DNA from: Hyphomonas sp.
GTDB lineage: Bacteria > Pseudomonadota > Alphaproteobacteria > Caulobacterales > Hyphomonadaceae
Direction of reading: 5' to 3'
Assembly (NCBI GenBank): GCA_016124495.1
Contig: WGNP01000007.1
Location: 124,001-188,000, forward strand
DNA: 64,000 nucleotides
In this document: positions 8,054 through 25,952 of the stretch, in pieces
Layout of the letters: each line of letters opens with the position of its first letter
Position numbering within the stretch: the stretch's first letter is position 1
Program-made: the position numbers and the translations under genes
The notes under the pieces: model-generated
What the model was told of the DNA's origin: nothing
The model's input: only the letters and a program-made list of their open reading frames with translations
The model's database searches: none

Positions 8054-8078
8054 GCAGGCGGTTTAGCCCTTATTCGCG

Positions 8079-8762: not shown

Positions 8763-8796
8763 TCAGTATCGCCTTCTTATCATCTGTTCGCGTTGG

Positions 8797-9123: not shown

Positions 9124-9305
9124 GAGGCTCCATATGCTGGCAAGGCTCTGAACGTTAAGTGAATGGCGCAGTTCAGCTGCAGTCAGCCTGCGAACGCTCT
9201 CATCTTCCGGCTGACAATGCGCGAGAACTGCCAAGCCGCGCCGCCCCACGAAACCTTGAATATTATGACTTTAAAATCACCTGCGGCGGCGCTGCAAGAC
9301 AGGCG

Positions 9306-10580: not shown

Positions 10581-11465
10581 ATGTCGGCCCGCGTTATCTC
10601 GATTGCCAATTCCAAGGGCGGGGTCGGCAAGACCACGACCTGTGTCAGTCTTTCCGAAGCCTTCGCGGCCGCCGGCATGCGCACGCTGGTGATCGACCTC
10701 GACACCCAGGCCAACGCCTCGCTGCTGATCTTCGGCCATGCCGGCGACGAACACCTGTTCCAGGCGATCAACGACTACGCGACGATCTCTGACTGGCTGC
10801 TGGAGAACTTCTTTGCCGGAGAGCAGCGCCGCCTCTCGGAATTCATTGTCACCAATGCCAGCGACGTCACCTTCAAGGGCAAGCCCCTGCCGCTGGACCT
10901 GATCCCCTCCTCGCCCCGCCTGCGCAAGACGGAACGAGAACTGATCTTCGAACTCACCGCCAAGGGCTACGCGATGGAGGCCCTGCAGAACCAGGTCGGC
11001 AGGCGCCTGCGCGACGACCTGAACCTGCTCAAGGCCGAATACGACGTCATCATTTTCGACTGTCCGCCCGGCATCTCAGTGATGACCGAAACCGTCCTCG
11101 CCGCCAGCCACCTGATCATTGTGCCCACGATCCCGGATTTCATGTCGACGCTCGGCCTTGACCTGTTCACGGGTGATATCATGAAGAACCTGCGGAACCG
11201 GGATATCGCCACGCTGCCCGTCGTGCTCGCTACGCGCTTCGACAACACGCCCCACCAGCAGGTTGTTCTCGGCGCCATGCGGGATGCGTCGAACGCCAAG
11301 GAAACCGAGTTCGCGATGTTCAAGACCATCATCCCGCTGAAATCGGGCTTCGCCTCCAACCCCATCGAGCTCGGCCCGGATCCCACGCTGCAGGCAAAGT
11401 GGCCGGGTGACGCGCTGAATATCATCGAAAGCCTGCTCGTCGAAGTCCGGGAGAAGCTCGCATGA
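10581..11465 (+). CDS. ParA/MinD-family ATPase
   Basis: Cytoplasmic P-loop ATPase of 294 residues. It has the deviant Walker A motif KGGVGKTTT, the switch I DTQAN and a Walker B-like VIIFDCPPG. It resembles stand-alone ParA-like ATPases that position cargo on the nucleoid or membrane rather than the chromosomal ParA next to parB, since no parB or parS is nearby. The next gene overlaps it by four bases (ATGA) and is probably the partner. Cargo is unknown. Lying just before the TIR locus is suggestive but not evidence of a shared role. Confidence 0.88.
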   Translation: MSARVISIANSKGGVGKTTTCVSLSEAFAAAGMRTLVIDLDTQANASLLIFGHAGDEHLFQAINDYATISDWLLENFFAGEQRRLSEFIVTNASDVTFKGKPLPLDLIPSSPRLRKTERELIFELTAKGYAMEALQNQVGRRLRDDLNLLKAEYDVIIFDCPPGISVMTETVLAASHLIIVPTIPDFMSTLGLDLFTGDIMKNLRNRDIATLPVVLATRFDNTPHQQVVLGAMRDASNAKETEFAMFKTIIPLKSGFASNPIELGPDPTLQAKWPGDALNIIESLLVEVREKLA

Positions 11466-11950
11466 GCTTTGGCGGCGGCCCCTCCGGATTCAACGCCATC
11501 AAGGCGCTGGTGGATTCCTCGGCGGATCTCCGAGCCGTCGCCGACAAGGACTGGGCGACCGCCGCTGGCCTCATCGTCAAGAAACTGCTGATCGCCGCCG
11601 GCCAGACCGGCGAAAGCCTGATCGCCCTGCGCGCCGCGGTCGGCGAGGAGATCTTCGAAGCCCAGCTGAAATCGCTGTCGCATCATCAGGCAAAACTGCT
11701 CGCCAAACGCCTCGACAGGTCGGTGGCGGACCTCGAAGTCTCCACCGCCCGCGCCGCCATCGGCCATATCCGCACGCTGCTGGTGCCTGCGCCGGCCGTG
11801 GAAGACAAGTCTGCTGAGCCGGAGGCAGGCATCACCGCAACTGATCCGCCTACGGATGAAAACGAAACCGTCACGGAAACCCCGGCGGACGATACGCCCC
11901 CTGCAAGTCCGAACCCCTACTTCGGCCGCAAGTCTTTTCGCACAGGTTGA
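11462..11950 (+). CDS. Unknown protein coupled to ParA-like ATPase
   Basis: Protein of 162 residues with no family I recognise. Residues 10-105 are mostly amphipathic alpha-helix with many Ala/Leu/Lys/Glu and no TM segment. Residues 108-150 are acidic and Pro/Thr-rich, probably disordered, and the end is basic (PYFGRKSFRTG). Its start overlaps the ATPase stop in an ATGA, so it is co-translated. By analogy with ParA partner proteins it may stimulate the ATPase through a basic terminus; that is inference only. Confidence 0.75.
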   Translation: MSFGGGPSGFNAIKALVDSSADLRAVADKDWATAAGLIVKKLLIAAGQTGESLIALRAAVGEEIFEAQLKSLSHHQAKLLAKRLDRSVADLEVSTARAAIGHIRTLLVPAPAVEDKSAEPEAGITATDPPTDENETVTETPADDTPPASPNPYFGRKSFRTG

Positions 11951-12201
11951 GCCTCGCTCATCCCTGAGCGGGCGCCCAAGATCTGCAATCAGTCGAGAAC
12001 ACGCTGATCTCTCAGCCTGCGCACAATGCCTTCTGCGCCGCCCCGCGTCGTCTGCCGCGCGAGCCTGATGCCGATGTCGTGCACCGGTTCGAAGATCCTC
12101 ACGAGGAAGCGCGCCGGAGACGGATTTCCTTCCGGCCGCAACCCGAACGAAAACCTTGACGCAGAAGAACAGCCTGTGAAGGCCACAGACGCAGGCGATC
12201 C

Positions 12202-12990
12202 TCAGGCCTCGATCAGCTTCGCCCGCAAATCGGCTTGCAACGCGGCATCGACGTTCAGCACATCCACCAGATACCCATCCAGCGACCCCGCCCTGGCGTT
12301 GATCGCACCAAACGCCCGGTCGAGATACTTCAGGTGCACACCCATGAACGGGCGATAGACTTCCGCCGGCAGGTCCTTGCCAATCATCTGGTTGAAATAG
12401 GCCGCCGCCTCGGGCAGCCGCTGGTTCACGCCGACGGCCTCGTTGGTCAGGTCGTAGTCCGACCTCATATCGGCTTCGGACACGCCCAGAATGTGGTGCG
12501 TCAGTGCGCAGAGAATGCCCGTGCGGTCCTTGCCGGCAGCGCAGTTCACCAGCCCCGCCGCCTCGCCCGGCGCTTCGGACAACTTCACGAACCAGTCGCG
12601 GAACAGCGCCTGGTGGTGCGCCTTGAAGGGGGCCTTCTCGTAATACTCGGCCATCCACTCGTCGGCAGCCTCGGCATCGACGGTGACCTGTGTCAGGAAC
12701 CGCATATGCGGTGCCTCGCTCTCGCGCCCGCCATCGTGGGTGATCACCACCGGCGGATTGAACCGGCTTTTCTGCTTGTCGCGCTCATCGGGGCGCCGCA
12801 GGTCCGCCTGCACATGGATGCCGAGCGCGTCCATCCTGGCGAGTTCGTCCTCGCTCGCCTCGGCATGGTGGCCTGACCGGTACAGCCGCCCCATCCTCAC
12901 CCGCCCGCCAAACCGGCTGTCATACCCGCCGAAATCGCGGAAATTGCGGATCGTTTCAAAGGCGAGCAGGCGCGGGCGTTTGTTTGTCAT
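12202..12990 (-). CDS. Tyrosine-phosphatase-like protein (CX5R)
   Basis: Protein of 262 residues with the Cys-X5-Arg phosphatase loop NCAAGKDRTG and the upstream RNFRDFGGY motif typical of the bacterial tyrosine/lipid phosphatase family (Y_phosphatase3, LipA/MptpB-like). These act on phosphotyrosine or phosphoinositides through a Cys-phosphate intermediate. No signal peptide is visible. The ATG at 12990 follows a GGGGG run at good distance and matches the family start; the frame extends to 13053. It is transcribed away from the RyR-domain gene across a 113-bp gap. The substrate cannot be told from sequence. Confidence 0.85.
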   Translation of the reverse strand: MTNKRPRLLAFETIRNFRDFGGYDSRFGGRVRMGRLYRSGHHAEASEDELARMDALGIHVQADLRRPDERDKQKSRFNPPVVITHDGGRESEAPHMRFLTQVTVDAEAADEWMAEYYEKAPFKAHHQALFRDWFVKLSEAPGEAAGLVNCAAGKDRTGILCALTHHILGVSEADMRSDYDLTNEAVGVNQRLPEAAAYFNQMIGKDLPAEVYRPFMGVHLKYLDRAFGAINARAGSLDGYLVDVLNVDAALQADLRAKLIEA

Positions 12991-13103
12991 GCCCCCGAGG
13001 TAAATCGCACCCGCCCGTCCGTCCAGTGACATTGCAGTGTCACGCAGGGGCAAGCAGCAAACGCCCCCTTGCCCCCCGCGCGCAATCCCCCGAAACTTCA
13101 GCC

Positions 13104-13457
13104 ATGTCTCTCCCGCCCGACCATCTCGACGCCGTCGCCCGCACCGTCCATGAAGCCCTCCGCGCCTGGGCTGCGGCGCATGGCCAGCGAGACATCCCCG
13201 CCTGGGACGAGGCGCCGGACTGGATGCACGCCTCCACCCGCGAGAGCGTCCGGCACGCCCTCGAACACGACGCCCCGGACGGGCGCACGCAACACGACCA
13301 ATGGCTATCCCAGAAAGCCCGCGACGGCTGGACCCTCGGTCCTGTCAAGGACGCCGCCGCCAAGACCCATCCGCTGATGGTGCCCTACGATGACCTCCCC
13401 GAATGGGAACGCCGCAAGGACGCCCTGATCAACGCCCTCGCCCGCGCCCTCGTCTGA
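13104..13457 (+). CDS. Small RyR-domain protein
   Basis: Protein of 117 residues that is essentially one RyR domain, the repeat first named in ryanodine receptors. Visible signatures are IPAWDEAPDWMHASTRESV, WLSQKARDGWTLGPVKD and THPLMVPYDDLPEWERRKD. Prokaryotic RyR domains have been proposed to sense nucleotides made in conflict or stress signalling, and they occur beside TIR and related genes. I chose the ATG at 13104, where homology begins; the frame runs back to 12984. It converges on the DUF1353 gene (9 bases between stops) at the end of the TIR operon. Domain call firm, role inferred. Confidence 0.85.
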   Translation: MSLPPDHLDAVARTVHEALRAWAAAHGQRDIPAWDEAPDWMHASTRESVRHALEHDAPDGRTQHDQWLSQKARDGWTLGPVKDAAAKTHPLMVPYDDLPEWERRKDALINALARALV

Positions 13458-13466
13458 AGCCGTGCC

Positions 13467-14063
13467 TCAGACAGAAGCTGTCTTCCCGCGCTTCGGCTTG
13501 GGCGGCGCCCAGCTGATATCCGTACTGCCATAGGGCGGGTCGACCGGATCGCCGGACTCGGCGTCCACGAACTTCCAGTCATCCTTCAGTCCGTACCCGC
13601 CGCCGCCGAAAAGTCGCACCATCCGGTACATCACCGAGCGCCGGAATCCCGGCACGCCGGCATCCTTCATCGCGTTGAGGAACAACCGGTCAGCCAGCCG
13701 ACGCGCCTTCTTCTGGCCGATGGCATAGAGATAGTCATGCAGCACCGCGGCCGGCGCATGCCGCCCGAACGGCTGTACGATGAAATGGAAGATCGACGGG
13801 ATCGACGCAAAGTCCGTCACGAAGCCGAGCGGCACCTCTACCGTGACGTCCACTCCATGGACCGGATGCACATAGGCATACGGCCGCGTCACCACCGCCA
13901 GCGTGCGCCCCTGCTTCTCCATGTCCGACAGGATCGCCACCGCCACCATGTGACGGCGCGCTTCGTTCTTTCCGACATGCGTGGCGCGGCGAACGGCTTC
14001 CAGCCCCTCCTCGCCCAGCGCCTCAAGGCGCTCCGTACCGGCAGACCTGTCAATGAACGGCAT
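13467..14063 (-). CDS. DUF1353 protein
   Basis: Protein of 198 residues with the DUF1353 core: VPLGFVTDFASIPS, HAPAAVLHDYLYAIGQKKAR, DRLFLNAMKDAGVP and VMYRMVRLFGG. The family is widespread in phages and bacterial mobile regions and has no established function; conserved His/Asp (LHDYLY) suggests a hydrolase-like or metal site. ATG at 14063 has GAAGG six bases upstream, better than the GTG at 14078. It is 24 bases downstream of the giant protease gene and is probably the last gene of the TIR operon. Confidence 0.8.
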   Translation of the reverse strand: MPFIDRSAGTERLEALGEEGLEAVRRATHVGKNEARRHMVAVAILSDMEKQGRTLAVVTRPYAYVHPVHGVDVTVEVPLGFVTDFASIPSIFHFIVQPFGRHAPAAVLHDYLYAIGQKKARRLADRLFLNAMKDAGVPGFRRSVMYRMVRLFGGGGYGLKDDWKFVDAESGDPVDPPYGSTDISWAPPKPKRGKTASV

Positions 14064-14087
14064 CGCGCCTTCTCCCACTCACCCGCC

Positions 14088-17000
14088 TTACGCCAGCCCG
14101 AACGCGGCGGCATTCGCCGCCGGCACCACGCCGTCCGCTTCGCCCGTCAACTCCAGCTGTTTTGCAATCAGCGCCCGCTGCGTCTGGTAACCAAAGTCCC
14201 CGTCCGCCGTCACGCCGAGCGCCGCCTGTAACATCTTCACCGTCTCGCCCTGGCTGCCCCGGCGCAACTTCAGGAACCGCGTGTCGCCCCCCGCCGCGCC
14301 GAGGTGTTCGGAGGCGAGGCGCATCTCCCTCGCCGTCATCAGGACATATGTGAAAGCAGTGCCGTCTTCCGGCGTTTTCACAACATGCTTCTTGCCGTCC
14401 ACAGATGAGACCTCCGGCTTCGGCGCAAGCCCCGCCGCCATCCTGAAGCTCGCCCAGTAACCCGTCGGCGTATCCCGCGACTCCGGCGTCATCACAGACC
14501 CCTTTACCACCTGGCAACCCGCCGAATAATGATCCGCGCCCCAGTTCACCCGCGCGCCGAGCCCGGCATGGATGTTATCCCAGATTCCTATCTCCCTGCC
14601 CGAATCGGTCGCCGTGTCCCAGCGTACATTGCTGCTCCGGAAGCTCAGCTCCGGGCTTGCCAGCCGCATCACGCACAGGCGGGATTTCTGCCGGAACGCG
14701 CCCGGCTGGCGTGTCTTGCCGCCATTCGCATGCGTGCCCACGACATGCTGGTACACGCCGGGCGGCAACATGTTGGCCCCGTCACCGATTTTCTTATCAG
14801 CGCGCACCTGCACCGAGTTCCACAGATACCCCACGGCCGGCACGGTCGATCCGGGGCACAGCCAGATCAGGTCCGTTTCCCGGTCCCAGACGCCCATCAC
14901 GCAGTTATAGCCCACATGGTTCGGCTCGGTTTCGGCAATCGGCAGCTGCCCGCTAAACTCCGCAGGTGCCCCTTCGGGCGGCAAAGTTTTTGGCGCCGCT
15001 CCGCGAATGCCGAACAGGACCCGCCGGCTCCAGTTCGCGCCCACCGGCGTCGAGGCAAAGGCAAGCGCCTGACGTAGGACCGCGCCGCTGAACGGGAAAC
15101 TCATGCCATTGTTCAGATCGATCGGAAGGTGTGCAAGATGCTTCGTGTCTGGATGGTCGGCCAGCGCCGGCCACTGCGCCTTCGGCTTCGGATTCAGCCC
15201 GCTGAAGGGCGCGACGCTGCCGGACTCCAGCGTATGCACGTCCATGCTCTCATAGCCGGTCTCAGCCGTGTCGCGCCGCCCGTCCATGTTCTCGAAGAAG
15301 GCGGCATCATCTTCCGGCACAACTTCGATGCGGGCGGCAGAAGCCGTGCCCGGTTGCAGAGGGGCAGGCGCGGGTGACACATCAGGCGCCGCAGGTGCCG
15401 GTTCGGATGCAGGCTCCGGCGCTGGCGCAACGGGCGGCGTCAACGGCGCAGCCACAACCGGCTTCGCCGCCGGGACATCCGCCTTCTCCGCCCGCACCGC
15501 TGCGATGATCGCCTGTATCCACAGGCCCTCATTAGCCTTGTAGCTTTCGTTCGGCTTTCGCATCCGTCCCAGTGGTTCATCCGTGGTCGAATGATGTATG
15601 CCGATCAATTTAAGCGACGAGGTGCTGAGCACGGGGCTACCTGAATTTCCGGGCTCGGTCGGTGCCCGGTAATGGATACGCACCGGCTGAGGCGTCGCCT
15701 TGGCCGCCGGGTTTTTCAGCTCATGGTCGATGATGTAATTGTGCTCGAACGTGATCTCCAGCCCGCGCCCGTTCGGATGACCCACAACGAACACGCGCGG
15801 CGCCCGTAACGGCGCGTCCTTGTCCGCCTGCCCTGTCTGCGTGCTATGGCGCAGCGGCAGCGAATCCTGGATTTCCAGCTCGCCCAGCAGCCCCTCCGGC
15901 TGCTTGTGCAGGCGAAGGATCGCGCAGTCATGGGTCTTGCTGTCCGAGCGCCAGAAGATTTCCGATACCCGGTAGATTTCATCCGGGTTCAGGTCTTCGA
16001 AGAATATGCAGGCCTCGGCCGAGCGGATCGACGCGCCAGCATAGCTCTTCTCATCGCACACCACATGGTCATTGGTCAGGAAAACATACTCGTTCGCCAG
16101 CGCCGGGTGAACATGGCGCCCATGCAGCAGGAAACCCGTGCCCACAGCCCGCCCGTTCGGCGCGCACACCTTGCCCACCGCCTGGGACAGCTTGAGCACC
16201 TTGCGGATATCCGCCGCGGGCATGGCCTTCACGCCGTCAAGCAGCGCCTCCAGCTCGTCCGCCTCCGGCCCGGCCGTCTCCGCCATGGCCTCGATCTCGT
16301 CGATGCTCAGCGACACCGTGGCCATCGAGCGCATCGCCAACTGCGCCATCTGGCGCACGATATGGCTCAGCGCCGTGTTAGCTTTCGGATCAATGCCCCA
16401 CATTTCCACCAGCTGCCGGCGGGTTGCGTTCAGCGCGAAGGGCTTCTCTTTCGCCTTTTCCAGATATGCCGTGTAATGAGCAATCGCCTCGGCTTCACGC
16501 CCGAGGTAGAGCGCTGCGTCGCCCGCATTTGCCAGCTCCCAGTCAGAACCCGAGCCGCCCTTCTTCGCCGCCTTCAGGATGGCGCGCGCCCATTTTGCCG
16601 CATCCGCCTTCTTGCCCAACGTGATGCCGCGCGCCTGCGCAGCCCGCATCAGGCCAAGGAGGTTCACCTGATGGAATTCCGGGTCCGGCTGCGCCGACTG
16701 CATCGTCGCGGCCATGCCCTGCATGTAGAACGCATACGACCGCTCGAAGGCGAGACGCGTCGCCTCGTTCACCTCTTTCGCGCGCACCGCCCGCTGCTTC
16801 CAGATCCGCCCCTGCAGGCCAAGGCAGTCCGAGAGTAGCCCAGGGTCATTCTCGAAATCCTTGCCCGCAAGCTGGATCGCCCTGGTCAGGAACGCCTCGG
16901 CCACCATCGGCGGCAGCGGGTCGCCCTGCTCCGCCCGCGCCAGATCCGCCAGGCTCGGCGCGCCGTTCATTTCCACATCAGCCGATGCCCCGAAATAGTG

Positions 17001-18371
17001 CAGCCAGCCGATTTGCACCCCGCCATCGCGCACCGCCGTCGCCAGCGACATCAGCGCCTTGAACTCCCTCCGGTCCCGCAGCTTCTTCGCCACTCCGCGC
17101 AGCTGCGTGCGGTAGCGTTCCGGATTACTGCGCACCAGCGCTGCATAATCGTCCACCGCAGTATAGAGCTGGCTCACCAGTTCGCTGAGGCCCTCGTCCG
17201 CCAGCCCGTCCGGATGGGCAAGGCCCTCCAGCGAGGCATCAATCGCCGCCTCGGTCTCCGCCGCCACTTGGGCGCCGTCCATTATCGCGCGGAGGGCCGA
17301 ACCCGAAACCGCCGCCGGCGAAACATCCTTCGCCGGAAACAGCTCGGCATCGTCTGCGAAGTTGAACCCCTCGCGCTGCTTCATCAGCCGCGTGAACCGC
17401 TCCTTCGCATCGGCAATGATCTCGTCGCGGTCGCGCTGTGTCAGTTCGTCGGACAATTCCACCTCGCCGCAGAACTGCCGGAACAGTTCGCGCAAGCGCG
17501 CATCGGAAACGTCCGTCCCGCTCATATGGGCCTGGCGCAGCCGCTCACGCGCCTTCGGAATGGTGCCTATCCGCAGCCGGTCCGAATTGGTGTCCGTCGC
17601 ATCAATCGAGTAAACGATATAGGCTCGTTGCAGGGGCTTGCCCTTCACATCGCGCAGCAGGTTCTCGCGCGCGTCGAAATAGACCTCGCCGGGGTCCGCC
17701 CCGCCGCCGGCGATCGCCGCCCAGGTCCCCGTCGTAAATGTCTCGTTGCCCGTTGCCGCCAGGCTCAGGATCACACCGACTATCCACGGCGTCTGCTCGT
17801 CCGGCAGCAATTCCTTTATGCCCTTCAGCGCCCCATCGATGCCCGCGCCCGCGATCCCGCCCAGGATCAGCATCTCGCCCTTCGGCAACAGCTTCGATCC
17901 GGCCCGCGCCACATCCACCAGCTTGCGTGCTGCTGCGTTAGACTTGAACAGGTGCAGCCCGATATTGATGTCCACTGACCCGTCAAACCGCTCCGGTCCG
18001 AAGAAGGTGCGCCCGCCGAAGGCATAATTACCGTGCGACTTGAGGTTCGGATGCGCTTCCGGGTTAGGTCCCATCACGGCCACCTGCGGCAGGTCGGTAT
18101 CCGTTGGCCGGCGCCAGGTCGCATCCGCAAAGATCAGCGGCACCTGCCGGGTCAGACCCTTGCGCGCCTCCGGATGGTAGAAAGACAGGACGCTGATCGA
18201 GAGATACACGTCCGAATTGGCCGCAATCTCCCGCGACACAACCGGCGAGCCCTGCGCCGGCGTCAGCGCGATCTTGCGCGGCGGCACCGGCGCCTTGACC
18301 AGAATCGACTTCCAGTCAAACCCTCCGCCTTGTTCCGTCTGGGCTTCTGCCCCCCGCTTGCGATAGGCCAT
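14088..18371 (-). CDS. Giant TPR-trypsin-LDT-like-peptidoglycan-binding protein
   Basis: Protein of 1427 residues with an unusual domain series. Residues 1-340 are unrecognised (beta-rich, then a Gly-rich hydrophobic patch at 165-225). Residues about 380-670 are helical and resemble the TPR-S/DUF4071 regions found with TIR and caspase effectors. A trypsin-like protease spans about 725-955 with His769 (TNDHVV), Asp815 (THDCAIL) and Ser910 (PGNSGSP). A Pro/Ala linker occupies 965-1010. A domain at about 1070-1315 ends with His1268 and Cys1286 (NIHAG and SAGCQVV), the L,D-transpeptidase-like arrangement. A peptidoglycan-binding domain lies at 1368-1425. No signal peptide is visible. GGAG sits nine bases before the ATG. 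Confidence 0.85.
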   Translation of the reverse strand: MAYRKRGAEAQTEQGGGFDWKSILVKAPVPPRKIALTPAQGSPVVSREIAANSDVYLSISVLSFYHPEARKGLTRQVPLIFADATWRRPTDTDLPQVAVMGPNPEAHPNLKSHGNYAFGGRTFFGPERFDGSVDINIGLHLFKSNAAARKLVDVARAGSKLLPKGEMLILGGIAGAGIDGALKGIKELLPDEQTPWIVGVILSLAATGNETFTTGTWAAIAGGGADPGEVYFDARENLLRDVKGKPLQRAYIVYSIDATDTNSDRLRIGTIPKARERLRQAHMSGTDVSDARLRELFRQFCGEVELSDELTQRDRDEIIADAKERFTRLMKQREGFNFADDAELFPAKDVSPAAVSGSALRAIMDGAQVAAETEAAIDASLEGLAHPDGLADEGLSELVSQLYTAVDDYAALVRSNPERYRTQLRGVAKKLRDRREFKALMSLATAVRDGGVQIGWLHYFGASADVEMNGAPSLADLARAEQGDPLPPMVAEAFLTRAIQLAGKDFENDPGLLSDCLGLQGRIWKQRAVRAKEVNEATRLAFERSYAFYMQGMAATMQSAQPDPEFHQVNLLGLMRAAQARGITLGKKADAAKWARAILKAAKKGGSGSDWELANAGDAALYLGREAEAIAHYTAYLEKAKEKPFALNATRRQLVEMWGIDPKANTALSHIVRQMAQLAMRSMATVSLSIDEIEAMAETAGPEADELEALLDGVKAMPAADIRKVLKLSQAVGKVCAPNGRAVGTGFLLHGRHVHPALANEYVFLTNDHVVCDEKSYAGASIRSAEACIFFEDLNPDEIYRVSEIFWRSDSKTHDCAILRLHKQPEGLLGELEIQDSLPLRHSTQTGQADKDAPLRAPRVFVVGHPNGRGLEITFEHNYIIDHELKNPAAKATPQPVRIHYRAPTEPGNSGSPVLSTSSLKLIGIHHSTTDEPLGRMRKPNESYKANEGLWIQAIIAAVRAEKADVPAAKPVVAAPLTPPVAPAPEPASEPAPAAPDVSPAPAPLQPGTASAARIEVVPEDDAAFFENMDGRRDTAETGYESMDVHTLESGSVAPFSGLNPKPKAQWPALADHPDTKHLAHLPIDLNNGMSFPFSGAVLRQALAFASTPVGANWSRRVLFGIRGAAPKTLPPEGAPAEFSGQLPIAETEPNHVGYNCVMGVWDRETDLIWLCPGSTVPAVGYLWNSVQVRADKKIGDGANMLPPGVYQHVVGTHANGGKTRQPGAFRQKSRLCVMRLASPELSFRSSNVRWDTATDSGREIGIWDNIHAGLGARVNWGADHYSAGCQVVKGSVMTPESRDTPTGYWASFRMAAGLAPKPEVSSVDGKKHVVKTPEDGTAFTYVLMTAREMRLASEHLGAAGGDTRFLKLRRGSQGETVKMLQAALGVTADGDFGYQTQRALIAKQLELTGEADGVVPAANAAAFGLA

Positions 18372-18469
18372 AGTGTCCCGCTCCGGCTCGCTGATCGCCC
18401 AAAGGTTATGTTAATCATGCACATCAGGGAAGCGGGTTCGTGCGCGCCCCGCTGCAGCGCGGACCGGCC

Positions 18470-19540
18470 TCAGGGGGTGGGCGCCGGCGCCTCATAGTCG
18501 AACACCACATCCGCCCGCCGGTTGAAGGGTGACTTCACAGACGGCGCGAGCGGCTGCGATGAGCCATACCCGATCCGCATAATCAACATCTCGTCTACGC
18601 CCTGCGCCGTCAGCCATTGCGCCACCGTGTCCGCCCGCCGCTGCGACACAGATTCCGCATAGGACGGACTGCTGAGCAGATCATCATGCGCCTCGATCCG
18701 CACCTCGATCAGGTCACAACCGAAGCTGCGCATCAGCGCTTCCTCGAGCACCGAGACCGATTGCGGCTTCAGGTCTGTGCGGTCAAACTCGAAATAAACC
18801 CGCGCCGTGCCGTCCCCGCAGCCGTCATCGGCAAACACCACGCCCTCGGGCGGCGGCAAAGGCGCTACCTCCTCAACCGGCGCGGCCTCCGCCAACCCTT
18901 CCGGCGCTGCCTCTGCCGTCTCACCCGTGGTCACAGCCGCCTGATCGGCCGGCTCTTCCAGCGCCGCAATTTCGTTCGTCGACAGGAACTGGTTTGCTGC
19001 AATGGCGCCCACCGCCACAAAAGCCAGCACGCCAAACACGATCCACAGCCGCTTCGCATTCGGGCCAGGCCCGTTGGACTCCCTTGCCACCACCCGCGGC
19101 GCAGGCGGCACCTGCGCCCCGCCTGCCAAGAGTCCAGGCTGCCCCAGCGTCCGCGCCAGCGCCCGCATCAGCTGCTGCCACTCCGCCCCGTCCATGCGCC
19201 CATGAAATCCCGTAAAATCGATCTGCTGCATGCCCTCGAACGCCACCGGCACATCCAGTTCCCCCAGCCTCTCGATCGCCAGCGGAATGAGACACTTGCG
19301 CTTCAGTCCGATCGAGCACTCCTGCTTCACCCACGGACGGCTCAGGGAATGCTGGCTCCACAGGCTCACAACTGCCCCTGCCGTCTTCACTTCCCGGTCC
19401 AGCACATCCGGAAACACATCGCCCCCGTCCAGCCCCTCGACATCAAAGAATACGGTCAGGCCGACCGCCTCCAGCCCGGCTTTCACCTGCTCCGCCACCG
19501 CAAGGTCCGCCCGCGCATAAGAAAGAAAAACATCAGCCAT
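18470..19540 (-). CDS. TIR domain - TM helix - OmpA-like fusion
   Basis: Protein of 356 residues. An N-terminal TIR domain (ADVFLSYARAD start) has a Glu in PWVKQE (about residue 74) at the place of the NADase catalytic Glu. One TM helix follows at about 164-183, then an acidic Ala/Pro/Glu linker. The C-terminal OmpA peptidoglycan-binding domain occupies about 243-350 (VYFEFDRTDLKP, QRRADTVAQWL, GYGSSQP, NRRADVVF). Topology would put TIR in the cytoplasm and the OmpA domain on the cell wall. ATG at 19540 follows GGTAGGTGG; a GTG at 19552 is also open. It lies between the TIR-WD40 and giant protease genes on one strand. Confidence 0.9.
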   Translation of the reverse strand: MADVFLSYARADLAVAEQVKAGLEAVGLTVFFDVEGLDGGDVFPDVLDREVKTAGAVVSLWSQHSLSRPWVKQECSIGLKRKCLIPLAIERLGELDVPVAFEGMQQIDFTGFHGRMDGAEWQQLMRALARTLGQPGLLAGGAQVPPAPRVVARESNGPGPNAKRLWIVFGVLAFVAVGAIAANQFLSTNEIAALEEPADQAAVTTGETAEAAPEGLAEAAPVEEVAPLPPPEGVVFADDGCGDGTARVYFEFDRTDLKPQSVSVLEEALMRSFGCDLIEVRIEAHDDLLSSPSYAESVSQRRADTVAQWLTAQGVDEMLIMRIGYGSSQPLAPSVKSPFNRRADVVFDYEAPAPTP

Positions 19541-19576
19541 CGGAATATCCACCTACCGCGTCCGCAACATAAAACA

Positions 19577-19637
19577 CCTCTTCCGCTTGCGGGAGAGGAG
19601 GGGCCCATTGCGAAGCAACGGGAGGCGAGGGCCTCCC
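19577..19637. repeat. Three adjacent hairpins (REP-like) between the two TIR genes
   Basis: Three inverted repeats lie back to back. They are 19577-19598 (10-bp stem with one mismatch, TT loop), 19604-19622 (8-bp stem, one mismatch) and 19620-19637 (7-bp perfect stem, GAGG loop). It fills the gap between the TIR-WD40 stop and TIR-OmpA start. A related CCCTCRCCTCCC stretch occurs at about 30138-30149. It looks like a repetitive extragenic element that could stabilise or attenuate the operon mRNA. Confidence 0.65.
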
Positions 19638-19642
19638 AAGGC

Positions 19643-22600
19643 TCACCGGAACGCCCAGCCAAACATCGCCCCCGCTGCTGCCTCCCACCACGGCGCCGGC
19701 GGCGGCGAACACACATCCTCCCCTTCCCGCCCGCGCAGGATCGGCGCAGCGAAGATCGTGACATCATCCAGCCGGCGCAAAAAAGGCACGCCATCTGCCT
19801 CAGGCGTCCCCAATAGTTTCGCGGCGCAGACCTGCGCAATGTCATCCCGAGAGGCCTCCCGGCGCGCTGCCCAGCCAATGTCCAGCTCAACCAGCCGCCC
19901 ATCGAGTTCCGAAATGACCAGCCGTCCGGCGCCCTGCTGCCAGACTGCATCTTGATTGGCAAAACCGCCGGACCAACCCGAAAGCTCCGTAAATGTTTTC
20001 GTGTCAAACTGCCGGACAATTCCGCCTTTAATCAGCACGATCATCCGGCGCCCATCATCCGAAAACCGGACATCTGCCTCACTCGTCTCGATGAAGACCG
20101 GGTCACTCCTCATCATGCCGTTCACGACGTTCCATAAGCGCAGATAACCATCATTGGCAACCGTCACGAGCGTACCGCCATCCGGAGAGAATTCTGCCGC
20201 TGTCGGAAAAGTGGGATGTGGCAGAATGCCTGCCGCGAGTTCGCCTGTCTCGAGGTTCATCAGCGTTGCCCCGCGCAACGGATAGTCCAGAAGCAGCGCC
20301 GCCTGCCGGCCGTCAGGCGCCAGTGAAGCGCCGACGATGGACGCCTCCGGCGTCACAACCGGCTGGATCAGCGCTCCATCTTCCGCAGACCAGAAACCGA
20401 TCCGCTTGTCGCTCCAGATGGCGATCAGCGACTCATGGGCGCTGATGCCAACGCGCGAGAAGGGAGGGCTCTCTGTCTCGGCTTTCAGGTCCGCGTCTGT
20501 CCAGACTGCCATGGGCGCGCCAATGGCTGCTCCGGTCTCCAGATCGATGAGCTGTCCATTACCGTTATTCACGATAACCATCCGTCCACGGATCGGCAAG
20601 ACCCTGAGGACCATGTCGTCGATCACCACCGGCTCCACGACCGGCTCCATCGTATCCGTATTCCAGATCGTCATCGTACCGTTATACTGCAGTGTCACCA
20701 GCCGCCGCCCGCCCAAGGCAAACTGCATCTCCGAAATCGATGCCGGATGTTCAAGGAGCGCCTCGCCATTCTCGCCCGTGCGCGTATCCAGCAACTGCAC
20801 GACGCCCTCAAAAGAAAACGCCAGGCGAGGTGAAACCGGGTCAAACACGGCTTTGAAAGACTCCGGCGGCCCAAGTAAAAGTTCGCCGCCCACTTGCTCG
20901 CCTGTCGCCGTATCGCGCAGCACGGCCCTGCCCGACGCGTTCCACACAAGCTGCCGCGTCCCGTCCGGCGAGAGCATCGCCCCGTCCGAAGCGCCGATGT
21001 CGGCCTTCCCCTTGAAAGGAATCGTCCGCGCCGGCCCCGCTTTCCAAATTCGGGCCTCGTTGTGCTCGATCGTCAGCACACGGCTGCCATCCCCGATGAA
21101 CTGCGGCGGGAACAGGAAATTGTCATGCTTCAGCGGACCCAGCAGAGGAATGCGGAAATAGGAGGCATCCCAGAAGTAAACTTCGTCGTCCTGATCCAAC
21201 GTCAGGGTGATCCGCCCATCCGGTGACAGCGCCGCATGGCCGACGAAACCCGCCGATTCCTTGGCCACCGGGGTTTCTGTCACCTGCCCCTCACTGACGT
21301 TCAACCGCACGATCCGGCGGCCATTCCAGGCGAGGTAATCCTGCGTGCCGGGAATAGGGGTGACTCCGTTCCAATTGTCCGGCCCGACATCCAGCTGCGA
21401 CCCGTACTCCAGCAAGGGCACGCCGTTGCGAATATCCCAGATCTGCACGCCGCTCAGATAGGAGACCGTGGCAAACGACGTATCATCAGCGCCGATCTCC
21501 ACTTCAGTTTCGCGCTCATCCGTGGAGATGATATCGCCGACCGGCGCGCCGGTATCCGCATCCCAGATCTGGACACTTCCAACAGGCGAAATCGTGGCGA
21601 TGCGCCGGAGTTTGTCCAGGAAAACGGTCCGATGAACGATATCCGGAAAATCGGCGCGCGCGAGCCGCTCACCCGTCTCTCCATTCCATATCTCGACGCT
21701 CTCGGTATCGGTTTGCAGCGGGGCGGTGAGGTCATCCGACTGCCGCGCAAGCTCCCAGTCAAACTCTCCGATGTTGCGCCGAAGCAGCACGCGGCTCGCG
21801 TCCGGTGAGAGGAAGCCACCCCAATACTCCCCGCCCTCCGGGTCAAATGGTCCGGCGATGATCTCTTCGCTCGCCGTGTCCGCAACAAACGCCTCGCCTC
21901 TTCGCACCACGAGCACCTTTGCCCCGTCCGATGACAGCGCCACCTGGATCGAAGGCGCGGCCCGCCCTGGAAACTCCGCGAGCTTGTCTCCTTTCGCGAG
22001 GTCGTAGATGCGCACCGTACCGTCTGACAGCCCCGCGGCCAGACGCCGGCCATCTTCGGACATGGCAACATGCATCAGCCCCAGCTCGTCTTCCCCCGCC
22101 TCAAGGCCCAGCGGCGCCGGCAACCGGCTGCCATCGCGCAGCGATATCACATGCGCCCCGGCGCCGTTCCACGCCGCCATATGCGCGCCGCCCGGAACCA
22201 GTGTTTCCTGCAGATGACCCTGCTCGGGATCAAGCGTCAGCGTCTCCCCCAGCTGCGCGCCGGTTTCCGCATCCCAAACAAAGAGGGAGTCGTAAGGGTT
22301 GGTTGTCACCAGCCGTGTGCCGCCCATCGCCGGGTAAGCCCGTGCGATCATAGGATCGAGCTCGCTGCCTTCGGGAAAGCTCTGCCGCACAGACGCCACA
22401 TGCGGCAACGCTTGGGCCATCTTTGCAAACGCCGCCTTCGCTTCATCCGTAGACGGCCGGAAAAAGGAATCACGCACCGCCAGGATCGCGACCTGCAGCG
22501 CGCGCCGGTATTCTCCCTGATTGAACAGCTGATCCGCCGTCCGCGCCAGCATCAGGCTCTCGCTGCGCCCGTAATTTCTCTGCTGATCGGCAACGAACCA

Positions 22601-23347
22601 CGCTCCCGTCATCGTCATCACGAAGGTCACCAGCACCACAAACGCCGTCACCCGCCGCCAGAAGGCGCGCACCTCGGCGTCCCGCCTGATCTGCGCGCGG
22701 CTCGCCGCAATCCAGGCCAGGAACAACTCGCCCGGCTCCGGCTCGCCCCTTGGCCGCGTCACGGCCCAGCGTTCGGCCTCCTCGACGGCGCCTTCGCGCA
22801 GCAACTGGCTTTTCGGCCGCCCTTCCGTATCCCATTCCTGCACCCGGATCAGGTATTTCCGCCCGTCCCGGTGCCAGCCGACGTTCGTCTCCAGCGCCGC
22901 CACCAGCCCCGCCAGCGCGGCGTCAAAACCCGGTCCGCCCTCCGAAAAATCAATCCGCACATTGAGCGCCGACAGCCTTGGCGGCGCCTTGGCAAAATCC
23001 ACGGGCCGGGCCAGCACCGCAATGATCCGCTTGCCCAGCGCGCGGGCATAGGCGATCTCCTCGTCGCAGACTGCGCTCGCGGCCGAATCCGGCGACACGA
23101 GAAACACCATCACGTCGGCGGCCGCGATCATCTCCTGCAGCCGTTTCCACCACTCGTCCTCGGCTGAAATACCCGCACTGACATTGCCGGGATCATGCGC
23201 AGCCCGGTCAAAGTCGGCGAGAAATCCCGCCGCCATCAACCCGTCCGCCACGCGCTGCACCAGCGCCGTGTCCTTGCGCGAATAGCTCAGGAACACGCGG
23301 GTACGCGCATCCTCCGCCACCGGCTGAATATCCAGCTTTCCCACCAC
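19643..23347 (-). CDS. TIR domain - TM helix - WD40 propeller protein
   Basis: Protein of 1234 residues. The N-terminal TIR domain (TRVFLSYSRKD, about 16-135) has a candidate catalytic Glu in AVCDEEIAYA (96/97). A linker typical of TIR-WD40 and STAND-type proteins follows (LLREGAVEEAERW, ending ASRAQIRRD). One TM helix lies at about 233-251, a helical hairpin at about 255-295 (QGEYRRALQVAILAV), and then about 900 residues of WD40-like repeats (for example LFVWDAETGAQLG, VEIWNGETGERLA, LRLWNVVNGM). There is no NTPase module between TIR and propeller. GTG codons at 23347 and 23344 compete; AGGAG is better spaced for 23344. First gene of the leftward TIR operon. Confidence 0.88.
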   Translation of the reverse strand: MVGKLDIQPVAEDARTRVFLSYSRKDTALVQRVADGLMAAGFLADFDRAAHDPGNVSAGISAEDEWWKRLQEMIAAADVMVFLVSPDSAASAVCDEEIAYARALGKRIIAVLARPVDFAKAPPRLSALNVRIDFSEGGPGFDAALAGLVAALETNVGWHRDGRKYLIRVQEWDTEGRPKSQLLREGAVEEAERWAVTRPRGEPEPGELFLAWIAASRAQIRRDAEVRAFWRRVTAFVVLVTFVMTMTGAWFVADQQRNYGRSESLMLARTADQLFNQGEYRRALQVAILAVRDSFFRPSTDEAKAAFAKMAQALPHVASVRQSFPEGSELDPMIARAYPAMGGTRLVTTNPYDSLFVWDAETGAQLGETLTLDPEQGHLQETLVPGGAHMAAWNGAGAHVISLRDGSRLPAPLGLEAGEDELGLMHVAMSEDGRRLAAGLSDGTVRIYDLAKGDKLAEFPGRAAPSIQVALSSDGAKVLVVRRGEAFVADTASEEIIAGPFDPEGGEYWGGFLSPDASRVLLRRNIGEFDWELARQSDDLTAPLQTDTESVEIWNGETGERLARADFPDIVHRTVFLDKLRRIATISPVGSVQIWDADTGAPVGDIISTDERETEVEIGADDTSFATVSYLSGVQIWDIRNGVPLLEYGSQLDVGPDNWNGVTPIPGTQDYLAWNGRRIVRLNVSEGQVTETPVAKESAGFVGHAALSPDGRITLTLDQDDEVYFWDASYFRIPLLGPLKHDNFLFPPQFIGDGSRVLTIEHNEARIWKAGPARTIPFKGKADIGASDGAMLSPDGTRQLVWNASGRAVLRDTATGEQVGGELLLGPPESFKAVFDPVSPRLAFSFEGVVQLLDTRTGENGEALLEHPASISEMQFALGGRRLVTLQYNGTMTIWNTDTMEPVVEPVVIDDMVLRVLPIRGRMVIVNNGNGQLIDLETGAAIGAPMAVWTDADLKAETESPPFSRVGISAHESLIAIWSDKRIGFWSAEDGALIQPVVTPEASIVGASLAPDGRQAALLLDYPLRGATLMNLETGELAAGILPHPTFPTAAEFSPDGGTLVTVANDGYLRLWNVVNGMMRSDPVFIETSEADVRFSDDGRRMIVLIKGGIVRQFDTKTFTELSGWSGGFANQDAVWQQGAGRLVISELDGRLVELDIGWAARREASRDDIAQVCAAKLLGTPEADGVPFLRRLDDVTIFAAPILRGREGEDVCSPPPAPWWEAAAGAMFGWAFR

Positions 23348-23522: not shown

Positions 23523-24116
23523 ATGATGAACATCATGAACCGCGTGCGTCTGTATCATGCCTTGCTCGCCGTCCTTGCCATAGGCGCCTATCTCACCGGT
23601 GAGGTCGATCCTGTCCATGCCTGGCTTGGCTATGGCGTCTCCGCCGTGATTGTCCTGCGGCTCCTCTGGGCTCTCGGCGGTGAGCGCCAGGCAGGCCTGA
23701 TGCGGTTCTACCCCGATTTCGGCGCCCTGAAACTCAAGGGCGCTGCCACCCACCCGGCGATCAGCCGTGTACTGATGCTGGGCATAGCCCTCTGCCTGCT
23801 GACGGTGACCGGTACCGGAATCGCGATGGACCAGGGCCGCTCAATTGGCCTCGGGTCCGCCATCGAAAGAGCCTCCGTGCAGTCACCGGCCGAACTGCGC
23901 GATGCGGACGAGGGCGAAGAGGACGAACACGAAGGGGAAGAACAAAGCGAGGAAGGCCCGCTGCCGGAAGTCCATGAACTGGCCGGCAACCTCCTGCTCG
24001 CATTCGTCGGCATGCATGTGACCTACCTGCTGCTGTTCAAACGCCCGCTCGCAAAATTCATGCTCTTCCTGCCTCGCGGCGCCAGGAAAAATCCGGCGCC
24101 GCCTACTTCAACTTGA
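23523..24116 (+). CDS. Cytochrome b561-family membrane protein
   Basis: Protein of 197 residues, a di-haem cytochrome b561 family member carrying electrons across or within the inner membrane. Four TM segments are visible at about 10-27, 32-50, 82-100 and 150-170. Candidate haem His are in RLYHALLA, VHAWLGYG, EVHELAGN and VGMHVTYL. An acidic insert (DADEGEEDEHEGEEQSEEG) sits between TM3 and TM4 and is unusually charged. Three ATGs (23523, 23526, 23535) are possible. The stop overlaps the convergent cytidine deaminase by 14 bases. Confidence 0.85.
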   Translation: MMNIMNRVRLYHALLAVLAIGAYLTGEVDPVHAWLGYGVSAVIVLRLLWALGGERQAGLMRFYPDFGALKLKGAATHPAISRVLMLGIALCLLTVTGTGIAMDQGRSIGLGSAIERASVQSPAELRDADEGEEDEHEGEEQSEEGPLPEVHELAGNLLLAFVGMHVTYLLLFKRPLAKFMLFLPRGARKNPAPPTST

Positions 24117-24495
24117 AGGCATGCGGCAGAAGCTCGCTCAGCAAGTAACGCTTCTCTGCGCCTTCCGGCGTAAAGCACAACACTTCGAGGTCGCTGCCAA
24201 ACTCTGCCAGCACCTGCCGGCAGATGCCGCAGGGCGCGCCAGGTTCGGCTCCGTTCGTAGCCACAGCGACGGCCCGGAAGGCCTGATGGCCCTGCGTGAC
24301 CGCCGAGAACACGGCGTTGCGCTCTGCGCAGCAGGTCGCCCCGAAGGTTGCGTTCTCGACGTTGCACCCGGCAATGATCTGGCCGCCAGACGTCAGCAAC
24401 GCAGCCCCGACCCGGTAGTCCGAGTATGGAACATAGGCGCGGGCCTGCACCGCGAGGGCGGCGGACTTCAGAGCGGGCCAGTCGATACCGCTCAC
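24103..24495 (-). CDS. cdd: Cytidine deaminase
   Basis: Homotetrameric-type cytidine deaminase of 130 residues converting cytidine or deoxycytidine to uridine in pyrimidine salvage. The zinc site is complete: CCAERNA (Cys and catalytic Glu) and APCGICRQVL (two Cys), with substrate-binding GCNVENATFG. Length matches the short family. Its start overlaps the AMP nucleosidase stop in an ATGA, so the two nucleotide-salvage genes are co-translated. The 3' end overlaps the convergent cytochrome b561 gene. Confidence 0.95.
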   Translation of the reverse strand: MSGIDWPALKSAALAVQARAYVPYSDYRVGAALLTSGGQIIAGCNVENATFGATCCAERNAVFSAVTQGHQAFRAVAVATNGAEPGAPCGICRQVLAEFGSDLEVLCFTPEGAEKRYLLSELLPHAFKLK

Positions 24496-25952
24496 CGGAA
24501 GGGCGGCTCATCGAAGGCGCGCAGCTTGCGGCTGTGGAGGCTTGCGCCGCCGTCAACGGAGAGGCGCTCGAGCGTTTCGATGCCGATACGGATATGTTCG
24601 CTGATGGCGCGTTCGTAGAAACGGTTCGCTGCGCCCGGCAGCTTGATCTCGCCGTGCAGCGGCTTGTCGGACACGCACAGCAGCGTTCCATAGGGCACGC
24701 GCAGGCGGAAGCCGTTGGCGGCGATGGTCGCGCTTTCCATGTCGATCGCCACGGCCCGGCTCTTGTTGAACCGGCGGGCCGAGGCAGTGAAGCGCAGCTC
24801 CCAGTTGCGGTCGTCGGTGGTGACCACCGTGCCGGTGCGCAGGCGTTTTTTCAACGCGTCGCCCTGTTCGCCTGTCACGGCGGCCGCGGCGGCCGCCAGC
24901 GCGACCTGAACCTCAGCGATCGGCGGCACCGGAATCTCCGGAGGCAATACGCTGTCGAGCACATGGTCTTCGCGCAGATAGGCGTGCGCGAGCACATAGT
25001 CGCCGATCTGCTGCGAGTGGCGCAGGCCGCCGCAATGGCCGACCATCAGCCAGACCTGCGGGCGCAGCACGGCAAGGTGGTCGGTGATCGTCTTCGCATT
25101 CGAAGGGCCGACACCGATGTTCACCAGGGTGATACCGGCGCCATCCTTCGCGCGCAGGTGATAGGCCGGCATCTGGAAGCGCCGCCAGGGCGAGGCTTCG
25201 ATGGCCGCGCGGCTGTCGACTTCCGGCTTCGCAATTTCCAGCCCGCCAGGCACTGAAAGCGACTCGTAGCGCGTATGGCCGCCGAGCTGCGTCAGCGCCC
25301 AGTCACAGAACGCATCTACATAGCGGTGATAGTTCGTGAACAGAACATAGTGCTGGAAATGCTCGACCGGTGTGCCGGTATAGTGCTGCAGGCGCTTCAG
25401 CGAGAAATCCACGCGCTGCGCATCGAACAGCGCCAGCGGGCGCTCTCCGAAGGGCTCGAACAGTTCGCCGTCGGCAATCTCGTCGCCGATCTGCGTCAGC
25501 TTCGGCGAGGGGAACCAGCGCACGAGCTCTGCCGGAGCAATCTCCTCGAGTCCGGCGGCCTGGGAGGGGTCCCAGACATAGGCATAGGGGATTTCGGACT
25601 TCGAGGGCTCAACGTAAATGTCCACGTCATAGTCGCGCATCAGCGGGGTCAGCTGCTCGATCAGGTAGGCCCGGAAGAATTCCGGCCGCGTGACGGTCGT
25701 CACATAAACCCCCGCCTCGCTCATCTTCCCGAAGGCCCTGGAAATCGGCGGCGGAGGACCATCCGGATCATAGACGAGGCGGATCTGCGGATAGCAGAAC
25801 GCGCCGCCGGCGCGTGCTTCGCCGTCCGGGGGCGCGGCGTCATGCAGGAACCGGTTGAGAGCTTCGGAAAGGGCGGAAACGGCTTCTGCGTAGAGCGCTT
25901 CCAGCGCGTCCACGATAGCCTTCGGTGTGGTATGTTTTGACATGGCACCCAT
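24492..25952 (-). CDS. amn: AMP nucleosidase
   Basis: Enzyme of 486 residues hydrolysing AMP to adenine and ribose 5-phosphate, which sets adenylate pools. It has the N-terminal Amn-specific domain (residues about 10-190) and a C-terminal phosphorylase-fold domain with VNIGVGPSNAKTITDHLAV, GHCGGLRHSQQIGDYVLA and AIDMESATIAANG. Length matches the E. coli enzyme. A second ATG at 25943 is as plausible; neither has a clear Shine-Dalgarno. It is the first gene of a two-gene operon with cdd. The pairing suggests nucleoside and nucleotide recycling, and it lies near NAD-targeting TIR genes without obvious connection. Confidence 0.93.
   Translation of the reverse strand: MGAMSKHTTPKAIVDALEALYAEAVSALSEALNRFLHDAAPPDGEARAGGAFCYPQIRLVYDPDGPPPPISRAFGKMSEAGVYVTTVTRPEFFRAYLIEQLTPLMRDYDVDIYVEPSKSEIPYAYVWDPSQAAGLEEIAPAELVRWFPSPKLTQIGDEIADGELFEPFGERPLALFDAQRVDFSLKRLQHYTGTPVEHFQHYVLFTNYHRYVDAFCDWALTQLGGHTRYESLSVPGGLEIAKPEVDSRAAIEASPWRRFQMPAYHLRAKDGAGITLVNIGVGPSNAKTITDHLAVLRPQVWLMVGHCGGLRHSQQIGDYVLAHAYLREDHVLDSVLPPEIPVPPIAEVQVALAAAAAAVTGEQGDALKKRLRTGTVVTTDDRNWELRFTASARRFNKSRAVAIDMESATIAANGFRLRVPYGTLLCVSDKPLHGEIKLPGAANRFYERAISEHIRIGIETLERLSVDGGASLHSRKLRAFDEPPFR

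Follow-up and report, generated by a model that had tools for sequence, protein, structure and literature searches.

TIR proteins, a TPR-S-like protease and lysin-like modules at one variable site in Hyphomonas: a possible self-lysis system

The closest described systems

In type IV Thoeris, a signal made by a TIR protein activates a caspase-like protease (PMC12847820; all PMC papers cited here are drawn on in excerpt). The locus described here lies in a stretch of 64,000 nucleotides from Hyphomonas sp. (assembly GCA_016124495.1, contig WGNP01000007.1, positions 124,001 to 188,000; hereafter the window). It consists of leftward genes for a TIR protein with WD40-type repeats (TIR-WD40), a TIR protein with an OmpA domain (TIR-OmpA), a 1427-residue fusion protein and a DUF1353 protein, and of a convergent gene for a RyR-domain protein. 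As in type IV Thoeris, an ADP-ribose-type (ADPR-type) signal made by the TIR proteins is proposed to activate a protease of the same operon (PMC12847820). Unlike in Thoeris, a trypsin-like protease is fused to a TPR-S-like sensor and to a lysin-like module, the TIRs are membrane proteins, and RyR and DUF1353 proteins are present. Neither a ThsA-type effector (SIR2-SLOG, TM-macro) nor a caspase-like protease was found in the eight proteins of the window locus covered by the Pfam domain search. TIR-WD40 matches Pfam ThsB_TIR slightly over the cutoff (22.7 against 21.2 bits), and the PADLOC ThsB models match at 1e-5 or weaker. TPR-S domains were reportedly placed by Burroughs and Aravind in 2020 within prokaryotic immune systems, as predicted sensors of NAD-derived signals with proteolytic activation. 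To such systems the window adds a putative wall-lytic effector, an N-terminal module (N-module), RyR and DUF1353; lysin partners may already be listed there.

For the NucA-trypsin “System 3”, which has trypsin-like peptidases in Alphaproteobacteria, proteolytic effector release was proposed, and an EAD1-linked lysozyme and peptidoglycan peptidase are mentioned in the same source (PMC7159879). LypABC, also with trypsin-like peptidases, causes lysis (PMC13236601). The window locus shares with both the trypsin-like peptidase and the alphaproteobacterial host, but differs by TIR, TPR-S-like, RyR and fused lysin-like modules; no NucA endonuclease, CARD or NLR ATPase was found in the Pfam scans of the eight locus proteins. 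The window and NucA-trypsin proteases are probably related, because one plasmid match of the sensor-protease core (25% identity) bears the annotation DNA/RNA non-specific endonuclease. The vWA-MoxR-iSTAND ternary systems likewise have TIR or peptidase modules and transmembrane (TM)-OmpA wall-binding effectors (PMC7159879); vWA, MoxR and iSTAND had no match in the eight scanned proteins. The RyR protein resembles the RyDEP/R12 proteins in its Pfam RyR match and in identically spaced H, W, H and D residues (PMC13232231); unlike RyDEP, it is encoded by the host beside TIR genes, not by a phage, and is known here from sequence. Phage endolysins (GH108 or L,D-transpeptidase (LDT)-type lysins) also join catalytic and wall-binding modules, whereas in the window the lysin-like module is fused to a sensor-protease chain and no holin was found in the locus. 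By the features compared, the locus belongs to none of Thoeris, System 3/LypABC and the iSTAND ternary systems. No described system of TIR, TPR-S, trypsin and lysin was found among the open-licence papers listed, a scope outside which the 2020 TPR-S paper lies; the excerpted text of PMC9503650 makes no mention of RyR or trypsin, and that of PMC8195603 none of peptidoglycan or lysozyme.

Gene content and lysin exchange in Hyphomonadaceae

It is proposed here that the locus encodes a self-lysis (abortive-infection-type) system, in which a sensor-gated protease is combined with a domesticated phage lysin; belief and doubt in this reading are close to balanced. The recurring core consists of the N-module, the TPR-S/protease and a lysin, usually with RyR. 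Seven Hyphomonas loci were compared (the window and L036-L041), and their contents were counted by a six-frame profile scan; some genes are placed on the wrong strand by the gene caller. Because some of the proteins found by the family profiles had also gone into building them, Pfam matches were preferred for counts. All seven loci contain the N-module, the TPR-S-like/trypsin-like core, DUF1353, one or more TIRs and the convergent RyR gene, which in L036 is truncated where the contig ends. The preliminary description of this DNA had made its claim depend on conserved synteny in relatives, and the synteny holds; because the same genes recur jointly, their grouping is above chance. The site is a hotspot whose contents vary, as would be expected if the genes were chance neighbours in a gene-rich island, yet this explanation is contradicted by the synteny, with co-occurrence repeated in order and orientation and with gene fusions, and its probability is negligible.

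The lysin slot is not filled uniformly. An LDT-type (phage-lysin-like) module occupies it in four of the seven loci (window, L037, L038, L039), and a GH108 endolysin, encoded together with the N-module by a gene of its own, in two (L040, L041). Nine loci from eight genomes of other genera (L100-L106, L109, L110, where L102 and L103 belong to one genome) hold N-module-GH108 and TPR-S-protease, with RyR in eight of them. In L102, N-module, GH108, TPR-S and protease form a single chain, and the fusion order differs: GH108 precedes the protease there, while in the window the protease precedes the lysin. L026 (genome G065) holds TIR, TPR-S-protease, N-module-GH108 and RyR, with DUF1353 some kilobases off; in L107 and L108 only the N-module is present. 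GH108 is rare in the class (21 matches in 96 genomes), and its profile found no match away from the core in the 695,332 bases of L036-L075, so chance would not be expected to produce the pairing.

The exchange can be followed by comparing the window with L041, a locus also numbered L025 (genome G036). The border genes of the two are 97.7 and 99.6% identical and the proteases 29%, while TIR-WD40, DUF1353 and RyR are 84.5, 88 and 93% identical, and the LDT-type module is replaced by a separate N-module-GH108 gene. Just inside one border, the cytidine deaminase-like and cytochrome-like genes are 81.5 and 87.8% identical. Judged from these sequences, this looks like cassette exchange within a closely related region. 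As a query, the 1427-residue protein matched 10 genomes among 150 from the order, but only its own genome and G041 over the whole length; the N-module profile matched 19 of 398 genomes, seven of them of the same genus (both counts include the source genome).

The C-terminal module carries the residues H1268-X14-S1283-x-G-C1286, of which His, Ser, Gly and Cys are invariant in nine of nine aligned sequences, window included. The consensus of YkuD L,D-transpeptidases is HX14-17[S/T]xGC; no YkuD Pfam match was obtained for the module. Its peptidoglycan-binding end is supported. Compared with viral structure models (E <=0.001), the model of the module gave two matches, one uncharacterised (2.9e-7) and one named “Lysin” (6.8e-5). 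Relatives of the module were found in three viral loci on viral contigs, and in two of these contigs (L111, L112) the lysin-like domain gene adjoins a preceding membrane protein that is holin-like by eye. An LDT-type lysin family with a SAGCQV motif is common to bacteria and phage contigs (L111 4351-5193, L112 5908-6780, L113 6001-6615), and its catalytic part has no Pfam match in the members scanned.

These data bear on another explanation, an envelope-breach alarm or repair system. Damage to the wall would then be sensed by TIR-WD40 and TIR-OmpA; the LDT-type domain would cross-link or edit peptidoglycan and so seal the wall instead of lysing the cell. OmpA and peptidoglycan-binding domains are indeed present, as are the L,D-transpeptidase-type residues, and L,D-transpeptidases are among the non-significant fold matches. 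However, GH108, a wall hydrolase family, fills the same place in L026, L040, L041, L100-L106, L109 and L110, the named viral match is a phage lysin, and two phage relatives adjoin the holin-like gene mentioned above; repair therefore seems improbable. For the wall modules of the 1427-residue protein, a lysin effector is a better reading than a sensor, because relatives carry GH108 or other wall hydrolases there. The broader claim of the preliminary description, a conflict system centred on wall-anchored TIR sensors, stands in part. The locus is a conserved conflict-type locus with TIRs, a protease, a RyR protein that probably handles a nucleotide signal, and wall modules, but the TIR sensors are not its centre: TIR-WD40 occurs in six of the seven Hyphomonas loci (absent from L036), TIR-OmpA in three (window, L036, L037), and the nine other-genus loci have no TIR beside the core.

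The gene map itself was reproduced. All five open reading frames were confirmed in position (Table 1), and the reported spacing of 24 to 102 bases holds with internal ATG starts (gaps of 102, 98 and 24 bases; with the longest starts 90, 98 and 9), on which basis a single operon of the leftward genes is plausible. The RyR and DUF1353 genes converge 9 bases apart, and both assignments agree with Pfam (RyR 3.3e-10, DUF1353 3.2e-27). Kyte-Doolittle analysis and Pfam (TIR_2 4.4e-20 for TIR-OmpA; WD40 1.5e-11; other values in Table 1) likewise bear out two TIR proteins with one TM helix each and different C-termini. Among the domains described for the 1427-residue protein, the trypsin-like (Trypsin_2 2.4e-14) and peptidoglycan-binding ones were recovered, TPR-S stays under its cutoff, and the L,D-transpeptidase residues are kept without a Pfam or fold match.

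Table 1. Coordinates of the locus and of its borders, as positions in the window
Feature	Positions	Strand	Details
TIR-TM-WD40 protein, 1234 aa, GTG start	19643..23347	-	TIR res 18-148, TM res 235-253, WD40-type repeats from ~res 420
TIR domain of TIR-WD40, predicted cytoplasmic	22904..23296	-	TIR_2 1.9e-16
TIR-TM-OmpA protein, 360 aa	18470..19552	-	TIR res 8-127, TM res 169-187, OmpA res 253-338
OmpA peptidoglycan-binding domain of TIR-OmpA, predicted periplasmic	18539..18796	-	OmpA 1.5e-11
1427-aa fusion: N-module, TPR-S-like, trypsin-like protease, linker, lysin-like C-terminus	14088..18371	-	
N-module, res 1-360 of the 1427-aa protein, undescribed	17292..18371	-	GH108-fused in relatives; model weakly C2-like
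TPR-S-like sensor and trypsin-like protease core, res 394-985	15417..17192	-	triad H769, D815, S910
Linker, protease to lysin, res 986-1060, candidate processing site	15192..15416	-	first third Pro/Ala-rich
Lysin-like module, res 1061-1427	14088..15191	-	L,D-transpeptidase-type H1268, S1283, G, C1286, followed by peptidoglycan-binding domain
DUF1353 protein, 203 aa, of a family frequent in phages	13467..14078	-	alternative ATG at 14063
RyR (R12) domain protein, 117 aa, convergent	13104..13457	+	H64, W67, H89, D106 at RyDEP spacing
Border of insertion site, outside system: cytidine deaminase-like and nucleosidase-like genes	24103..25952	-	named by eye
Opposite border of insertion site, outside system: tyrosine-phosphatase-family gene	12202..13053	-	

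Distant relatives and the variable chromosomal site

Beyond the family, an alignment of the core was compared with 84,980 species genomes; 300 stretches were matched and 40 loci confirmed, of which 39 hold the core by six-frame profile and L075 does not. Thirty-two loci were counted as outside Hyphomonadaceae, with assignment by record title. At least seven of the 32 have a wall hydrolase within two genes of the core, identified by Pfam as GH108 (L043), Amidase_2 (L053, L059) or phage lysozyme with LysM and CHAP (L071), and by profile only as GH108 (L045, L052) or a lysin-like protein (L070). Pfam-confirmed TIR genes lie near the core in at least six (L046, L047, L054, L056, L062, L065). Both counts are lower bounds, because the Pfam scans of distant neighbours covered 30 proteins, 29 of them from 24 of the 32 loci, and eight loci have no scanned neighbour; they are also not fully independent, since L043, L045 and L052 are from related rhizobia and L054 and L056 from one assembly. 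The lysozyme-like reading of L049 and L070 comes from a weak Pfam match (E 0.023) and a two-sequence profile, Pfam being empty for L070. A putative alpha/beta-hydrolase gene was found by profile in 20 of the 32 loci, under a name that derives from one member's sub-cutoff Pfam match. The other neighbours include unrelated genes (tRNA ligase, GGDEF, aminotransferase), lipase-like genes (L065, L074), SLOG in L046 (Pfam name) and a STAND ATPase in L061. In L058 (1602-2945), a TPR-S/MAP3K_TRAF_bd protein (TPR-S 1.6e-28) directly follows the TPR-S-trypsin gene.

These neighbourhoods also bear on an ordinary TIR NADase abortive infection system, in which the large protease protein and RyR would serve other roles and merely share the site. 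The TIRs vary independently of the core, and RyR is found without it as well, both of which would fit. On the other hand, Pfam-confirmed TIR genes stand beside this protease family in six of the 32 distant loci, and RyR, DUF1353 and the protease are together in all seven Hyphomonas loci; this explanation is decidedly unlikely.

Phage origin of the whole locus was considered and rejected, as the core had no match in 50,697 phage records. Viral contigs contained no relatives of the core or of the N-module; in these records and contigs, only the lysin-like module and DUF1353 gave viral relatives, and the lysin-like module was not found in the phage records. Plasmid matches of the core came from 10 records, mostly rhizobial.

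Both border genes of the insertion site are present in 42 of 42 Hyphomonas genomes. In the 39 genomes with both borders on one contig, the interval between them ranges from 434 to 12,155 bases. Six genomes with the N-module could be measured (9,732 to 12,155 bases), and in the seventh (G697) the site is split over contigs; the largest of the other 33 intervals are those of G786 (10,562), G021 (7,092) and G683 (5,238). The smallest intervals viewed (G580, 434; G711, 494) contain a cytidine deaminase-like gene and no match of the cassette profiles. The site of G021 encodes a trypsin, a lysin-like domain and a pair of caspase proteins, of which one carries OmpA, and that of G786 two caspase-FGE proteins, a caspase-OmpA protein, a trypsin and two lysin-like genes; the site of G785, split over contigs, looks similar to that of G786. 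The site thus alternates between a TIR/TPR-S/trypsin/lysin and a caspase/trypsin/lysin cassette, and either may include OmpA-tethered members. In the caspase form, inspection by eye showed twin-arginine-like leaders on several of the lysin-like proteins, and leaders of secretion type on several caspases and trypsins; this supports the view that the lysin-like domain acts in the periplasm.

A second, secreted-looking cassette was seen elsewhere in the source genome (L030, contig C7, 75000-89090, at about 5592-13515) and in L029, L124 and L125. It encodes a pair of caspase-FGE proteins together with a trypsin protein and a lysin-like protein that has a twin-arginine-like leader, with caspase-OmpA in L029 and L124, and by its sequence is possibly a periplasmic caspase/trypsin/lysin system. 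In L028 (7814-11228), a caspase and a phage lysozyme are fused in 682 residues adjoining a lysin-like gene, again a protease and a lysin in one chain. Near the hotspot, a ParA-like gene and its 162-residue partner (window 10581-11950) are retained in the relatives L023, L025 and L029.

The lysis module could instead release particles or antagonistic cargo, such as gene transfer agents or toxins, and have no part in defence. LypABC, with its trypsin-like peptidases, is required for gene-transfer-agent lysis in Caulobacter (PMC13236601), which would be a precedent. The locus is patchy in the genus, with the N-module in seven same-genus genomes against border genes in 42 of 42, and effector swapping and a variable site would fit an arms race better. 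We consider release unlikely.

A proposed course of self-lysis and its meaning

Gene content, linkage, intact motifs, lysin swapping and the single variable site are established, and every step of action in the proposed self-lysis system is one that we infer. The first step concerns the TIR proteins. With one hydrophobic helix each, their WD40 and OmpA halves should be periplasmic, where they would watch the envelope or be held by it, while the TIR domains would cleave NAD+ and produce a signal of the ADPR or cyclic ADPR (cADPR) type. Cleavage of NAD+ is suggested by the TIR family and the intact glutamate. E97 of TIR-WD40, in a CDEE motif, aligns with E78 of TIR-OmpA, and this residue, which we take to be catalytic, is kept in nine of nine aligned Hyphomonas TIRs. 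An Asp and an Arg of the OmpA domain align with solved OmpA domains and are presumably the wall-binding residues. The TIR of TIR-WD40 had no sequence match among solved structures. The source genome (3.27 Mb) contains eight TIR_2 matches.

In the second step, the TPR-S-like domain of the 1427-residue protein would bind the signal; the TPR-S family is predicted to sense NAD-derived signals. The Pfam family TPR-S (PF20308) is matched over its cutoff in the relatives L026, L024, L102 and L106 (30.0 to 47.9 bits). The trypsin-like domain would then switch on and cut its own chain, probably in the linker. Its triad H769/D815/S910 is invariant in five of five aligned sequences, and sequences of solved structures gave for the whole protein four weak serine-protease matches alone (E 0.03 to 0.04). 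A G[FY]ES-like motif recurs at module borders, at residue 1039 in the window linker and in the linkers of L049 and L102, and might be a protease site. In 27 selected proteins it was found 14 times, where about 5 occurrences would be expected, and it was not used as evidence because many of these proteins are orthologues and the motif was chosen post hoc.

In the third step, the C-terminal lysin module, or the GH108 muramidase or other hydrolase in relatives, would attack the wall upon reaching the periplasm. The membrane might be breached by the phage's holin or by the putative alpha/beta-hydrolase or the larger RyR protein found in other versions; alternatively, the lysin might be set free after membrane damage. 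The lysin may act as a cytoplasmic holin trap, with inner-membrane breach leading to wall contact and premature burst of infected cells. The N-module (residues 1-360) has no Pfam family match, and its model gave nothing significant against solved structures in Foldseek. C2 domains recur among its top matches, at non-significant E values of 0.17 to 1.2. From these C2-like matches, a membrane-docking fold is possible; the models of the N-module and the C-terminal module are of moderate quality (pLDDT 68.5 and 68.9).

Finally, the RyR protein would bind or hydrolyse the signal and so set a threshold or end the response. Binding of 2'- and 3'-cADPR has been shown for phage RyR-domain proteins, one of which, RyDEP, also hydrolyses both via H75 and D117, with W78 and H100 aiding binding; six of eight RyDEP homologues bound the signal and, besides RyDEP, none tested degraded it (preprint, 2026; PMC13232231). 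The window RyR protein, matched by PF02026, has H64, W67, H89 and D106 at the spacing of RyDEP H75, W78, H100 and D117, and H-x2-W-x21-H-x16-D is kept in all 10 small RyR proteins listed and in two of the eight larger ones listed. Our best guess from these residues is that it handles an ADPR-type signal, whether by erasing, sequestering or sensing it. Since some genomes of the family have RyR genes but no visible N-module, RyR is a partner of the system and not its marker. Eight of the nine other-genus loci have a small RyR gene together with a second, larger RyR protein; each of the three larger proteins in which helices were sought has a pair of hydrophobic segments in its N-terminal part, with weak TrkA-N matches in two. 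RyR is C-terminal in the larger proteins of L101 (10946-12958), L104 (10940-12793) and L100 (8153-10195), and the TrkA-N matches are in L100 and L104. Possibly, judging from these segments, they are RyR-gated channels paired with the small RyR gene. DUF1353 had no match among sequences of solved structures, and its family was matched in 177 phage records, several of which label it a tail protein. An assignment to lysis cassettes was tried; an endolysin-type gene lies within four genes in three of five phage contexts viewed among the 177 records, which is suggestive only.

Several observations weigh against self-lysis. The main difficulty is the passage of a cytoplasmic lysin to the wall. No holin was found in the locus, and Kyte-Doolittle analysis gave no TM helix in the 1427-residue protein (nor in the DUF1353 and RyR proteins), which leaves the route of the lysin unexplained; by eye, the 1427-residue protein has no signal peptide either. 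TPR-S scores 20.8 bits in the window protein, under the cutoff of 27.6, as it also does in L025 (26.9). In the C-terminal module, the His-Ser spacing is X14 in the window and five others, X9 in L030 and L029 and X20 in L028, and its model found nothing significant among solved structures, with L,D-transpeptidase chains at E 0.44 to 2.3 (Foldseek). L036 keeps the set without the lysin module (977 aa) and without TIR-WD40, and so either works without a lysin or has decayed. A TIR adjoins the core in none of the nine other-genus loci (in L106 a TIR is weakly matched at a distance of several genes), 25 of the 32 distant loci are without a demonstrated wall hydrolase, and the sensor-protease profile matched three of 385 genomes of the class, the source genome included. 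The divergence between the window and L041 is partly regional, because the cytidine deaminase-like gene beside the cassette also differs. RyR, present in 26 of 61 genomes of the family, occurs in some without an N-module match, such as G021, and may be a sponge or receptor, since the other tested RyDEP homologues did not degrade the signal.

The fuller form of the self-lysis proposal is a host-encoded, apoptosis-like lysis against phages, in which a cADPR-type alarm from envelope-spanning TIRs would lead a TPR-S-gated protease to free a domesticated lysin, and RyR would erase the alarm. It is put forward tentatively, as possible but with doubt prevailing. If it is true, wall digestion by captured phage lysins would join NAD loss, membrane damage and proteolysis among the endings of TIR signalling, and host RyR domains would gain a role beside the enzymes that make their likely ligand. 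TPR-S domains also occur in ASK kinases; relatives of these domains and of the R12 domain of animal ryanodine receptors would then share one bacterial pathway.

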